Part shown: positions 1-8,651 of the stretch, one piece after another
Position numbering within the stretch: the first letter of the stretch is position 1
Layout of the letters: every line of letters begins with the position of its first letter
NCBI GenBank assembly: GCA_026418175.1
Contig: JAOABX010000001.1
Span: 1-64,000 of the forward strand
Reading direction: 5' to 3'
Length of the DNA: 64,000 nucleotides
Source of the DNA: Flavobacteriales bacterium
GTDB lineage: Bacteria; Bacteroidota; Bacteroidia; CAIKAF01
The notes under the pieces: generated by a model
Told to the model about the DNA's origin: nothing
What the model saw: the letters and a program-made list of their open reading frames with translations, nothing else
Databases searched by the model: none
Made by a program: the position numbers and the translations under genes

Positions 1-276
1 GGTTGTGATTTGCTTTCATTCTTTGACTTATTGATATTTGTTACAGCTCTCCGTTGTAGGCCCCCTCATGCCACTGGGTTGTGATTTGCTTTCATTCTTT
101 GACTTATTGATATTTGTTACAGCGAAACGTAAGGAATTCACGCACACAGCACAGGTTGTGATTTGCTTTCATTCTTTGACTTATTGATATTTGTTACAGC
201 AAAAATATTTTATTATTCTCGATAGCTTCGGTTGTGATTTGCTTTCATTCTTTGACTTATTGATATTTGTTACAGC
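1..276 (+). CRISPR. Type II-C CRISPR array, four repeats, left end cut by window
   Basis: Four identical 47-nt repeats start at 1, 77, 154 and 230. They begin GGTTGTGATTTGC and end TTTGTTACAGC. The three spacers are 29, 30 and 29 nt. Long repeats of 46-48 nt starting GTTGTGATTTGC are known from Bacteroidota type II-C loci. The first G is present in every copy seen, so the unit may be 47 nt, or 46 nt with a fixed spacer end. The tracrRNA at 7465 pairs with the 5' part of the repeat as written, so crRNAs are made from the + strand and the array runs toward cas2. The leader and promoter should then lie left of the window. The window starts exactly at a repeat boundary, so the true array length is unknown. 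No spacer match was seen elsewhere in the window by eye. Confidence 0.97.
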
Positions 277-282
277 ATACAT

Positions 283-345
283 GCTGGAACCCCCTGAAAA
301 ATCAATAAGTTCAAGGAAAATTAGAAGAAAAAAACTGTAACAAAT
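283..345. repeat. Inverted fragments of the CRISPR repeat after the array
   Basis: ATCAATAAGT at 301-310 is the exact reverse complement of repeat-4 positions 255-264. CTGTAACAAAT at 335-345 is the exact reverse complement of positions 265-275. A weaker match (GCTGgAAC, 283-290) precedes the first, so 283-320 resembles a decayed inverted copy of the 3' half of the repeat. In a transcript of the array these could pair with the 3' half of the last repeat, the half that the tracrRNA does not cover. Paired together the two long matches would cross, forming a pseudoknot, so they are more likely alternatives or relics. The match is seen directly; the role is unknown. Confidence 0.7.
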
Positions 346-383: not shown

Positions 384-1690
<1,307 letters not shown>

Positions 1691-1752: not shown

Positions 1753-2922
1753 CTACTTAATTTTTTTCAGATGCTTGTTAATAAACGTAAGGAGTGAGCA
1801 TACCTGTATATTATGGGTTTTATAACTGTCGCTTTCGGGAGTTATTAAGAAATTATTAGGCGATTGCAAATCGTTAATACAATTTAAAAAGCCTTTGGGT
1901 ATTTCGGGATGGTTGTTTAGCTTAATTTCTATGCAGGCTACAGGGCGATTCCCTTTTACCAGCACCAAATCGGTTTCGGCGCCGTGATGGGTTCGGTAAA
2001 AAAAGGCTTTAAGGCTGGGGTGCATTAACTGGATTATTTGTTCAATCACAAAGCCTTCCCACGAAGCGCCGCATACAATGTGGTTAAGCAACGATTCGTA
2101 GCTGTCAACCCGATTCATATAGTGCAGTAATCCGCTATCGCGGAAGTATATTTTAGGCGACTTTACAATACGTTTTGATGTATTTATGAACCATGGAGGC
2201 AAACGCCGTATCAGGTATGCAGCTTCCATAAAATCCATATACTTAACTACGGTAGCCCTGCTAATACCTAATGAGCGCGACAAATCTTCATAATTAAGAA
2301 GATTGGAGCTAATGCCCGATAAAATAGCCCACAACTTACGAACGGTAGCAGGCGATAAGCTTTCGTTCATGAGCATGGTAACATCCCGTTCTACAAACGT
2401 TTTTTCGTAATTATACATCCATGTGCTCCATTGCGTTAGGCTTCGTAACCGGAGGGCTTCAGGATATCCGCCCCGGAACCATAATTTTTTGTAGTCAATC
2501 CTGGTTTTTTGTGCCTCTAATACGTTTATACCGGGTAGTTCGATATAGGCTACTCTGCCGGCTAATGTTTCGGAAACATGACGCATTAAAAAAGGAGAAA
2601 CAGAACCTAATAATAAAAAACGACCCGGCTTTCGTTTGGCATCTATAATTGGTCGTAATACAGTAAATAATTCGGGCATGGTTTGGGCTTCATCTATTAT
2701 GATAAGTTTTTCGGGGTTGGCAGTAAATACTCCTTCCATATCGTCTAATTTTCGTCTATCGGAAGGAAGTTCTAAATCGAAGTGTAGAGTATTGCGTTTT
2801 CTTTGGTTAGCAATGTATTTAGCCAGGGTAGATTTACCAATTTGCCGAGCTCCTCCAATAACCACCGCCGGAAACTGGTTTAAGAGTCTGTTAATTTCTT
2901 GTTGTGCAAGGCGTTTTATCAT
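1753..2922 (-). CDS. AAA ATPase with DUF4143-type C-terminus, inside the cas operon
   Basis: This 389-residue protein is not a known Cas protein. The N-terminal ATPase has a Walker A, GGARQIGKST (about 23-32), a Walker B, KLIIIDEAQ (about 71-79), and a sensor-like LLLGSVSP. The middle carries a winged-helix-like segment, LSRSLGISRATVVKYMDFM. The C-terminal part, GAETDLVLVKG...IEIKLN, has the spacing of a PD-(D/E)XK nuclease core, as is common in DUF4143 proteins. This family is scattered and mobile in Bacteroidota and archaea, with unclear function. It lies between cas9 and cas1 in the same direction, where type II-C loci normally have almost no gap. Two palindromes lie just upstream. Whether it takes part in immunity is unknown; it may be a passenger. 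Confidence 0.85.
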   Translation of the reverse strand: MIKRLAQQEINRLLNQFPAVVIGGARQIGKSTLAKYIANQRKRNTLHFDLELPSDRRKLDDMEGVFTANPEKLIIIDEAQTMPELFTVLRPIIDAKRKPGRFLLLGSVSPFLMRHVSETLAGRVAYIELPGINVLEAQKTRIDYKKLWFRGGYPEALRLRSLTQWSTWMYNYEKTFVERDVTMLMNESLSPATVRKLWAILSGISSNLLNYEDLSRSLGISRATVVKYMDFMEAAYLIRRLPPWFINTSKRIVKSPKIYFRDSGLLHYMNRVDSYESLLNHIVCGASWEGFVIEQIIQLMHPSLKAFFYRTHHGAETDLVLVKGNRPVACIEIKLNNHPEIPKGFLNCINDLQSPNNFLITPESDSYKTHNIQVCSLLTFINKHLKKIK

Positions 2923-2929
2923 AGCTACT

Positions 2930-2970
2930 ACCGTGAAAAATTATAAGCAAAGTTATAAAATTTCACGGTA
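2930..2970. repeat. 41-bp palindrome, copy 1, 7 bp before the ATPase start
   Basis: The 17-bp arms begin ACCGTGAAAAATTATAA and close as ...TTTCACGGT around the loop GCAAAG. On the minus strand it ends 7 bp before the ATG of the ATPase, so it could be an operator or an mRNA hairpin that hides the ribosome site. It differs from copy 2 by one base. Confidence 0.85.
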
Positions 2971-3038
2971 AAAATAGTTTATAAATCATGCAGCGGTAAA
3001 AATTTATGTAATTGAAAAAGAATCAAATAGACTATTAA

Positions 3039-3079
3039 ACCGTGAAAAATTATAAGCAAAGTTATAAATTTTCACGGTA
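3039..3079. repeat. 41-bp palindrome, copy 2, 7 bp after the cas9 stop
   Basis: This is the same palindrome as 2930-2970 with one substitution in the right arm, so the pair forms a direct repeat of an inverted repeat 109 bp apart. It starts 7 bp past the cas9 stop codon. As RNA it would form a long hairpin at the 3' end of cas9 and could end or process that message. No copy was seen on the other side of the ATPase gene. Confidence 0.85.
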
Positions 3080-3086
3080 AAAGTTT

Positions 3087-7547: not shown

Positions 7548-8651
7548 TTATTTCTCCACCATTCCCCACAATTTCTTATAAATTACACTTACACGCTCCA
7601 CTTGGCCTTTGGCTACAAAGCGTTCGTAAAATCCTTCTTTTCTAAAATCAGGAATCAATCGTTTCCAGGGCTCAAGGTGTGTGGTCCAGGCTTTTACCCG
7701 GTCTTCATCAACATCATGTGCATCTTTAAATTCAGCAGCAACCCGTATCATGGCTTTGAGGGTAATGCTGTTGCATACCATGTATTTATCGTTTTCCCAG
7801 GCTTCGCCCCATGCATTTTTTGCAGCTTTTAAAAAGTCGCGAATCACTTCGTAATAATATTCTGTCCAGGCCTTGGTAGCTGCTATTTCTGTATTGGTTT
7901 TCATGTCGTTGGTAATCATGCGGTGCAGTTCGTTAAACAGTTCGGCCTGCAAAATCCATTTGTCTTTGCTGCTGCGCCCACCCAAGCGATTGATGCGGTA
8001 TTGCAGCGGGCTGTCGTTTTCACTGTATAGTTTTTCTCCAATCAACGAGGCTAATTTTTTATCGGCCGATGTCCACGAAACTTTTTCATATAAGTCTATC
8101 AAATGGCTTTTGTTGATGCGGGTGGGAGTAGAATTGATAATTACAAACATTTCGGTGGCAAAATCTTCACTTTTGCCATCAAAAATGATACAGGGCACGT
8201 GAATGGTATTGGCTTCTTCAGGATTGCTACGATAAAAAAATTCTAAGGCTGCCAGGCGGTGTTGCCCATCAATAATAAAAAACTTATCGAGTGGTTCTTC
8301 CAAATTGCCTACGTTAGGCATGTTGCCAAGTGGTGTAAAGGGCAAGGTATGCGGAGTAAATAATAACACCGTGGCCGGAATAGGCGGTTGGGTAGCTGCT
8401 GTTTCGTAAAAGTTTTTAATGGCTGCTACTTTTTTTCTGGATATTTCGCGTTGAAACGATTTATCACTACGCTCAATTTTTTTAATAAATTCAGCTATTT
8501 CGTCTTGTTTAGACGTTTCTTCAGCTTCAATTTTTTCTTTGTTTTCATCGTAAAACCGGCTGATAAATTTTACTTTTCGTAAAATATCAGCAGCCGGATA
8601 GGAAGCAAAATAAAATACAGCATCTTTTTGGCGGATTTGTGTGGCTAACAT
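7548..8651 (-). CDS. DGQHR-domain (DndB-like) protein
   Basis: This 367-residue protein carries the signature FIIDGQHRLAALEF at about 125-138, with DGQHR at 128-132. It defines the DGQHR family that includes DndB, the regulator of DNA phosphorothioation. Further family features are FVIINSTPTRINKSHLIDLYE after it and helical C-terminal parts. No dndCDE or other modification gene is in the window, so it is a solitary member and its partner is unknown. It reads toward cas9 in the same direction, with only the oppositely directed tracrRNA between them, so its message may run into cas9. It is likely part of the same defence island; the link to CRISPR function is inference. Confidence 0.82.
   Translation of the reverse strand: MLATQIRQKDAVFYFASYPAADILRKVKFISRFYDENKEKIEAEETSKQDEIAEFIKKIERSDKSFQREISRKKVAAIKNFYETAATQPPIPATVLLFTPHTLPFTPLGNMPNVGNLEEPLDKFFIIDGQHRLAALEFFYRSNPEEANTIHVPCIIFDGKSEDFATEMFVIINSTPTRINKSHLIDLYEKVSWTSADKKLASLIGEKLYSENDSPLQYRINRLGGRSSKDKWILQAELFNELHRMITNDMKTNTEIAATKAWTEYYYEVIRDFLKAAKNAWGEAWENDKYMVCNSITLKAMIRVAAEFKDAHDVDEDRVKAWTTHLEPWKRLIPDFRKEGFYERFVAKGQVERVSVIYKKLWGMVEK

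Follow-up and report, generated by a model that had tools for sequence, protein, structure and literature searches.

A PDC-S01 ATPase gene at the cas9–cas1 junction of a type II-C CRISPR locus: upstream palindromes and a residue–base code consistent with self-binding

In autoregulated controllers of defence and restriction systems, and likewise in toxin–antitoxin operons, the protein binds a palindrome that lies over its own promoter. We describe here an ATPase gene, placed within a CRISPR locus, which appears to follow the same principle with quite different protein parts.

The gene belongs to a family known as PDC-S01, which combines an AAA_14 with a DUF4143 domain. According to the account given in PMC12988326, the PDC candidates were found by their embedding in defence loci (Payne et al., 2024), PDC-S01 ranks fourth by frequency among the putative defence genes of prokaryotes and, like most PDCs, is experimentally unvalidated, with validation pending. 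In the literature searched, we found no description of a self-operator, a residue–base code or a repeated cas9–cas1 placement for PDC-S01, and the sections covered of a structured-RNA survey of CRISPR operons (PMC9067536) contain no palindromic element of this kind.

The CRISPR locus and its ATPase

The window, by which we mean the whole 64,000-nucleotide stretch of Flavobacteriales DNA that was analysed, begins at the first base of its contig. The genes cas9, ATPase, cas1 and cas2 follow one another in a single direction and are adjoined by a CRISPR array (Table 1). The locus is of type II-C, with cas9, cas1, cas2 and an array present and neither csn2 nor cas4 among the genes identified there. 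An earlier, sequence-only reading had described an ATPase gene between cas9 and cas1, codirectional with both and preceded by twin palindromes, and all of this is confirmed.

Table 1. Features of the CRISPR locus and of the ATPase gene (window coordinates).
Feature	Position	Strand	Basis or remark
CRISPR array, four repeats, 76–77 bp spacing	1..286	.	Cut by contig start (window base 1 = contig base 1)
cas2	384..716	-	Pfam CRISPR_Cas2
cas1	713..1690	-	Pfam Cas_Cas1; sequence
AAA_14 + wHTH + DUF4143 (PD-(D/E)XK-like) ATPase, PADLOC PDC-S01 family, 389 aa	1753..2922	-	Pfam, PADLOC, AlphaFold
PD-(D/E)XK-like core, residues 285–340	1903..2070	-	Alignment
His313 codon, predicts ACCxTG base (His to G)	1984..1986	-	MI/APC outlier
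Winged-helix DNA-binding region (predicted), residues 201–245	2188..2322	-	Residues 221–223 covary with inner half-site bases
Operator palindrome O1 (putative), 42 bp, overlaps promoter; discriminating bases 2933 and 2966 (ACCG in both arms)	2929..2970	-	
Bacteroidota-type -7 promoter box TAACTTTG within O1	2948..2955	-	Sequence; TAnnTTTG scan
Operator palindrome O2 (putative), 40 bp; discriminating bases 3042 and 3075 (ACCG in both arms)	3039..3078	-	
cas9, 1445 aa	3087..7424	-	TIGR01865 E 5e-94, HNH_4

The ATPase reading frame matches AAA_14 (E = 2e-24) and DUF4143 (E = 9e-41), AAA_22 being the only further Pfam match, and the PADLOC PDC-S01 profile (E = 8e-88). This makes the suggestion of an accessory defence or guard module plausible. 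The gene is the sole copy in the genome, in which there is no other DUF4143 gene. The AlphaFold model has a pLDDT of 93.8. Residues Gly24, Gly29, Lys30, Asp77 and Glu78 (Walker A and B) and Glu289, Glu316 and Lys334 are invariant in the alignment, while Asp318 and Glu332 are conserved in at least 90% of sequences. Since the Walker and PD-(D/E)XK residues are kept, the protein would be expected to be active.

The conserved start of cas1 lies 62 bp after the ATPase gene. At this position (1688–1690, minus strand) the window has ATC rather than the ATG expected from its relatives, which begin MIKRTLYFG. There is no in-frame ATG, GTG or TTG between the preceding stop and the ATC, and the next such start is a TTG at 1630. 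Either an assembly error or a weakened cas1 start could account for this. We also note a DndB/DpdB-like gene directly upstream of cas9 in the window (7548–8651), as in one other locus, L176.

Upstream palindromes and the residue–base code

The twin palindromes fall within two 44-bp segments that are 98% identical and 109 bp apart, with O2 upstream of O1. A spacing of 7 bp had been quoted for both; this was approximate, O1 ending 6 bp before the ATPase ATG and O2 lying 8 bp after the cas9 stop. The window contains four half-site matches, compared with 0.21 expected from shuffles, and no further such palindrome was found in the whole genome. Both copies lie on one side of the gene only. The proposal that they mark an inserting cassette was wrong if a mobility repeat is meant: they appear to be the gene's own promoter–operator, and the genome has them at this place only. 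A REP/RAYT mobile element was likewise rejected, as there is no transposase domain, the palindromes are one-sided and the genome holds two copies rather than many. Twin or triple operators were also seen in seven solo relatives, with varying spacing.

Comparison with other family members indicates that symmetric sites are a conserved property of the family. In 41 of 104 relatives a strong palindrome lies no more than 120 bp upstream of the gene, compared with 0/312 in shuffled sequences and 11/104 in downstream controls. A site model, for which 54 loci apart from a few atypical ones served as training set and the key base was omitted, placed symmetric sites before 154 of 184 relatives at a threshold of 4, the highest shuffled score being 2.8. 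Certain distances of the sites from the start codon and from the Bacteroidota -7 box are preferred: the TAnnTTTG motif occurs on the sense strand in 83 loci and on the antisense strand in 26, with offsets from the site centre of mostly +10 or +30/32 bp. The type of site follows the ATPase lineage and not the location, as illustrated by two cas-embedded copies (L016 and G020) whose TATCCATG-type sites resemble those of solo relatives. Moreover, palindrome distance tracks the winged helix beyond what is accounted for by the AAA and nuclease parts (partial r of 0.28 and 0.31; 0/500 permutations).

When mutual information was computed between the 389 protein columns and the positions of the half-site, residue 313 and base x of ACCxTG stood out. 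Across all columns this pair scores highest (APC 1.10), followed by 0.67 at the gappy last column and 0.48 at the recognition helix, where residues 221–223 covary with the inner half-site positions 8–11. Residue 313 is a histidine in the window's protein (RTHHGAETD) and lies in the nuclease-like domain three residues before the conserved glutamate. Gln or Asn at this position goes with A, His with G, Asp or Glu with C, and Ala, Gly or Val with T; the window, with His313 and a G, fits. The combined counts are 38/38 (Gln) and 11/11 (Asn) for A, 18/18 (His) and 3/3 (Lys) for G, 34/35 (Asp) and 3/3 (Glu) for C, and 25/25 (Ala), 2/3 (Gly) and 2/3 (Val) for T. Residues Ser and Thr are mixed, with no consistent base. 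Pairings of Asn or Gln with A, His or Lys with G, Asp or Glu with C and a small residue with T are the textbook contacts of proteins with double-stranded DNA.

The first set of loci agrees with the code in 97 of 97 cases, 54 of which had served to find it. Agreement was 36/39 in loci fetched after the code had been written down, the Lys–G pairing having first been noticed in this later set and thus not being blind there. In a phylum-wide set, drawn mostly from other classes, 14 of 15 symmetric sites scoring above the shuffled maximum agree. Independent phylogenetic pairs, taken from a tree built without the residues concerned, support the predicted direction in 9.8/10 (A), 5.7/6 (C), 8.0/8 (G) and 7.8/8 (T) cases, and none supports the opposite. 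Of the 23 discordant pairs of paralogues that share a genome, 20 have each paralogue matching its own site, and such paralogues with distinct operators point to private self-regulation. Relatives with Gly313 often have operators with a different key base in either arm (four such loci were noted), which would suit a relaxed specificity; this asymmetry is as expected, glycine having no side chain.

Because a single residue predicts a single operator base, it is very probable that the protein acts on its own promoter, binding and controlling it. The earlier suggestion of an autoregulatory operator thus gains strong support from promoter phasing, protein–DNA covariation and the code. We picture the palindrome as bound by the protein in a symmetric state, probably as a dimer. 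The winged helix would then read the inner part of each half-site, and one outer base would be read through residue 313 by the loop just before the conserved glutamate of the nuclease-like domain. Lying over the -7 or -33 region, the protein would most likely repress its own promoter. The position of the palindrome by itself would fit a repressor or an activator, since an activator could equally well have its site centred around -40 relative to a leaderless start.

Two other explanations of the palindromes deserve mention. The inverted repeats after the cas9 stop look perfect, as would suit an RNA element (hairpin, attenuator or terminator) between this gene and the ATPase, and an RNA switch had been offered as an alternative to the operator. 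However, the mismatches between arms comprise 21 G–T and 19 A–C, with no G–U excess, and the protein code is base-specific and has the look of double-stranded DNA recognition. Furthermore, the -7 box is inside O1, so that the ATPase's own transcript would lack the left arm of O1, which argues against a hairpin. We regard this explanation as very improbable. Alternatively, the palindrome might be chiefly a cleavage or loading site for the nuclease domain, at which the ATPase assembles and is licensed, rather than primarily an operator. The base-reading residue does adjoin invariant or near-invariant nuclease residues, and the code resembles base contacts of the restriction-enzyme type. Against this, the sites keep preferred distances from the start codon and -7 box, those in the window's genome occur solely at the gene's own promoter, and cutting there would break the chromosome. 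A cleavage or loading site is therefore doubtful in our view.

Recurrence at the cas9–cas1 junction

The order cas9–ATPase–cas1 occurs in six Bacteroidota genomes, that of the window among them, and the insertion is not unique to the window. Neither of the two outcomes that were to count against the earlier reading, an absence of palindromes near other family members and an insertion confined to one genome, was obtained. Among 80 named relatives, the three nearest (67–77% identity) and one at 49% also precede cas1, with cas9 upstream where the contig reaches. A class sample of 395 genomes, 83 of them with a II-C-like Cas1, added one embedded case (G020) and brought the total to six. The placement is rare, being found in 3 of the 83 Cas1-bearing genomes of this sample. 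The ATPase stop and cas1 start overlap by 4 bp in three loci and are 4 bp apart in one, compared with 62 bp in the window; in L016 a transposase lies between the two genes.

The six cas-linked ATPases do not form one clade (AU test, p = 2.9e-7), and in the Cas1 tree their hosts occupy at least four positions, requiring at least four changes. As judged from these trees, no fewer than three separate lineages of the ATPase are involved and no fewer than four of Cas1, and a single ancestral capture together with CRISPR is rejected by both. Grouping of the four clade-1 cas copies in a single clade is not firmly excluded (p = 0.075), but their hosts stand apart from one another in the Cas1 tree. We found no close relative with an empty cas9–cas1 gap from which to set insertion boundaries. 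In G002, a member of the same genus, Cas1 is about 53–55% identical and a transposase lies in the gap.

In G003, which is another species of the same genus as the window, the ATPase, Cas1 and Cas2 are 77, 82 and 91% identical to those of the window, and a different Cas9 (77% identical to that of L009) is encoded at the same chromosomal site. The pieces of this site are on two contigs; it was recognised by genes that correspond in size and order to those neighbouring the locus in the window, which are DndB-like and phosphomutase-like. The place of the window's DndB/DpdB-like gene is taken by one of similar size.

The retention of ATPase–cas1–cas2 beside two different Cas9 proteins in one genus would suit a dedicated II-C spacer-acquisition factor acting in place of Cas4 or Csn2, as would the position directly before cas1, with stop/start overlap in three loci, and the possession of ATPase and nuclease parts. 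However, most relatives are solo genes away from cas1–cas2, the cas-linked copies are polyphyletic, the ATPase is absent from most II-C loci and it has no match to a Cas4 profile. Such a role appears improbable.

The view that II-C loci usually contain only cas9, cas1 and cas2 holds poorly for Bacteroidota. Extra open reading frames, all codirectional with the cas genes, occupy the gap in about 30 of the 74 loci in which cas9 and cas1 are both in view (three of which were chosen for carrying the ATPase). These include REP-type transposases, ATPase_2-type ATPases and nucleotidyltransferase-like, Fic, RhuM/DOC and HIRAN genes. Among the gap proteins scanned with PADLOC, the DUF4143 ATPase, Fic, RhuM/DOC and HIRAN proteins match defence candidates (PDC families), and the ATPase_2, nucleotidyltransferase-like and transposase proteins have no such match. 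REP-type tyrosine transposases were seen in 12 loci, L016 included, all codirectional. Fic and RhuM/DOC genes each precede cas1 in two loci, and nucleotidyltransferase-like genes in four, one of which also has a HIRAN gene. In five loci the gap holds an ATPase of a different family (Pfam ATPase_2 where scanned), and the four such genes checked have their own, different inverted repeats just 5' of the start (e.g. ATCATACATAATGTATGAT).

As the association with cas9–cas1 is rare and the gap admits other genes, the ATPase could be a passenger there, with no functional tie to CRISPR, at a junction that is open to mobile or selfish genes. The variety of gap contents elsewhere favours this. On the other hand, every inserted reading frame runs in the direction of the cas genes, with coupling to cas1 in several cases and a match to PADLOC defence candidates in several. 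We consider a passenger a realistic possibility, although not the likelier case, and it is compatible with the operator part of the interpretation that we prefer.

Interpretation and comparison with known systems

In our view, the most consistent interpretation, to which we assign a probability of roughly 0.78, is that the gene is a self-binding, autoregulated PDC-S01 cassette which has been inserted repeatedly and leaves cas1–cas2 downstream of its operator. The cassette would be self-contained: its protein unites an AAA+ ATPase, a winged helix and a PD-(D/E)XK-like domain, and it would bring its own promoter–operator. Such cassettes have repeatedly entered the cas9–cas1 junction of type II-C loci, where cas9 would have separate expression from upstream. 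The conserved symmetric sites, the promoter phasing, the code, the repeated insertion and the gene order emerge directly from comparison; binding is inferred from covariation, and dimer formation, repression, co-transcription with cas1–cas2 and a defence role are likewise deductions. Since cas1–cas2 usually follow the ATPase directly, co-expression from the ATPase operator is possible; this suggestion comes from gene order, and in the window the intervening gap and the non-canonical cas1 start must be borne in mind. A defence role of PDC-S01 would presumably involve ATP-dependent sensing or nuclease action.

A bolder proposal, which we think unlikely, is that the ATPase senses infection through phage DNA or nucleotide state, leaves its operator and so induces itself and cas1–cas2, and with them spacer acquisition. 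PDC-S01 proteins would then generally be promoter-bound sentinels in which a nuclease-fold domain reads a private operator by a one-residue code. If this were true, spacer acquisition would be switched on by infection. In any case, the repeated capture with cas1 directly downstream raises the question of whether control of the acquisition genes has passed to another defence gene.

What is new here is the residue–base code of the palindromes in a very common and uncharacterised bacterial gene family. The code offers a direct handle on what PDC-S01 binds, as exchange of the residue should change the operator preference.

A phmmer search of the PDB gave no convincing match to the ATPase. The best fold matches are the archaeal AAA+ ATPases Sso1545 (PDB entry 2FNA; E = 7e-7) and PABY2304 (2QEN; E = 2e-6), with a TM score of about 0.5 and only 14–15% identity over the alignment. 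Cas4, a PD-(D/E)XK protein, and Csn2 are likewise nuclease-like or ATPase accessories beside cas1–cas2, but the ATPase described here has different domains and its family is mostly solo outside CRISPR loci. It resembles PDC-S01 in its profile match and in its location inside a defence locus. Compared with autoregulated controllers and toxin–antitoxin systems, its DNA contacts would be made by a winged helix together with the nuclease-fold domain of an AAA+ ATPase.
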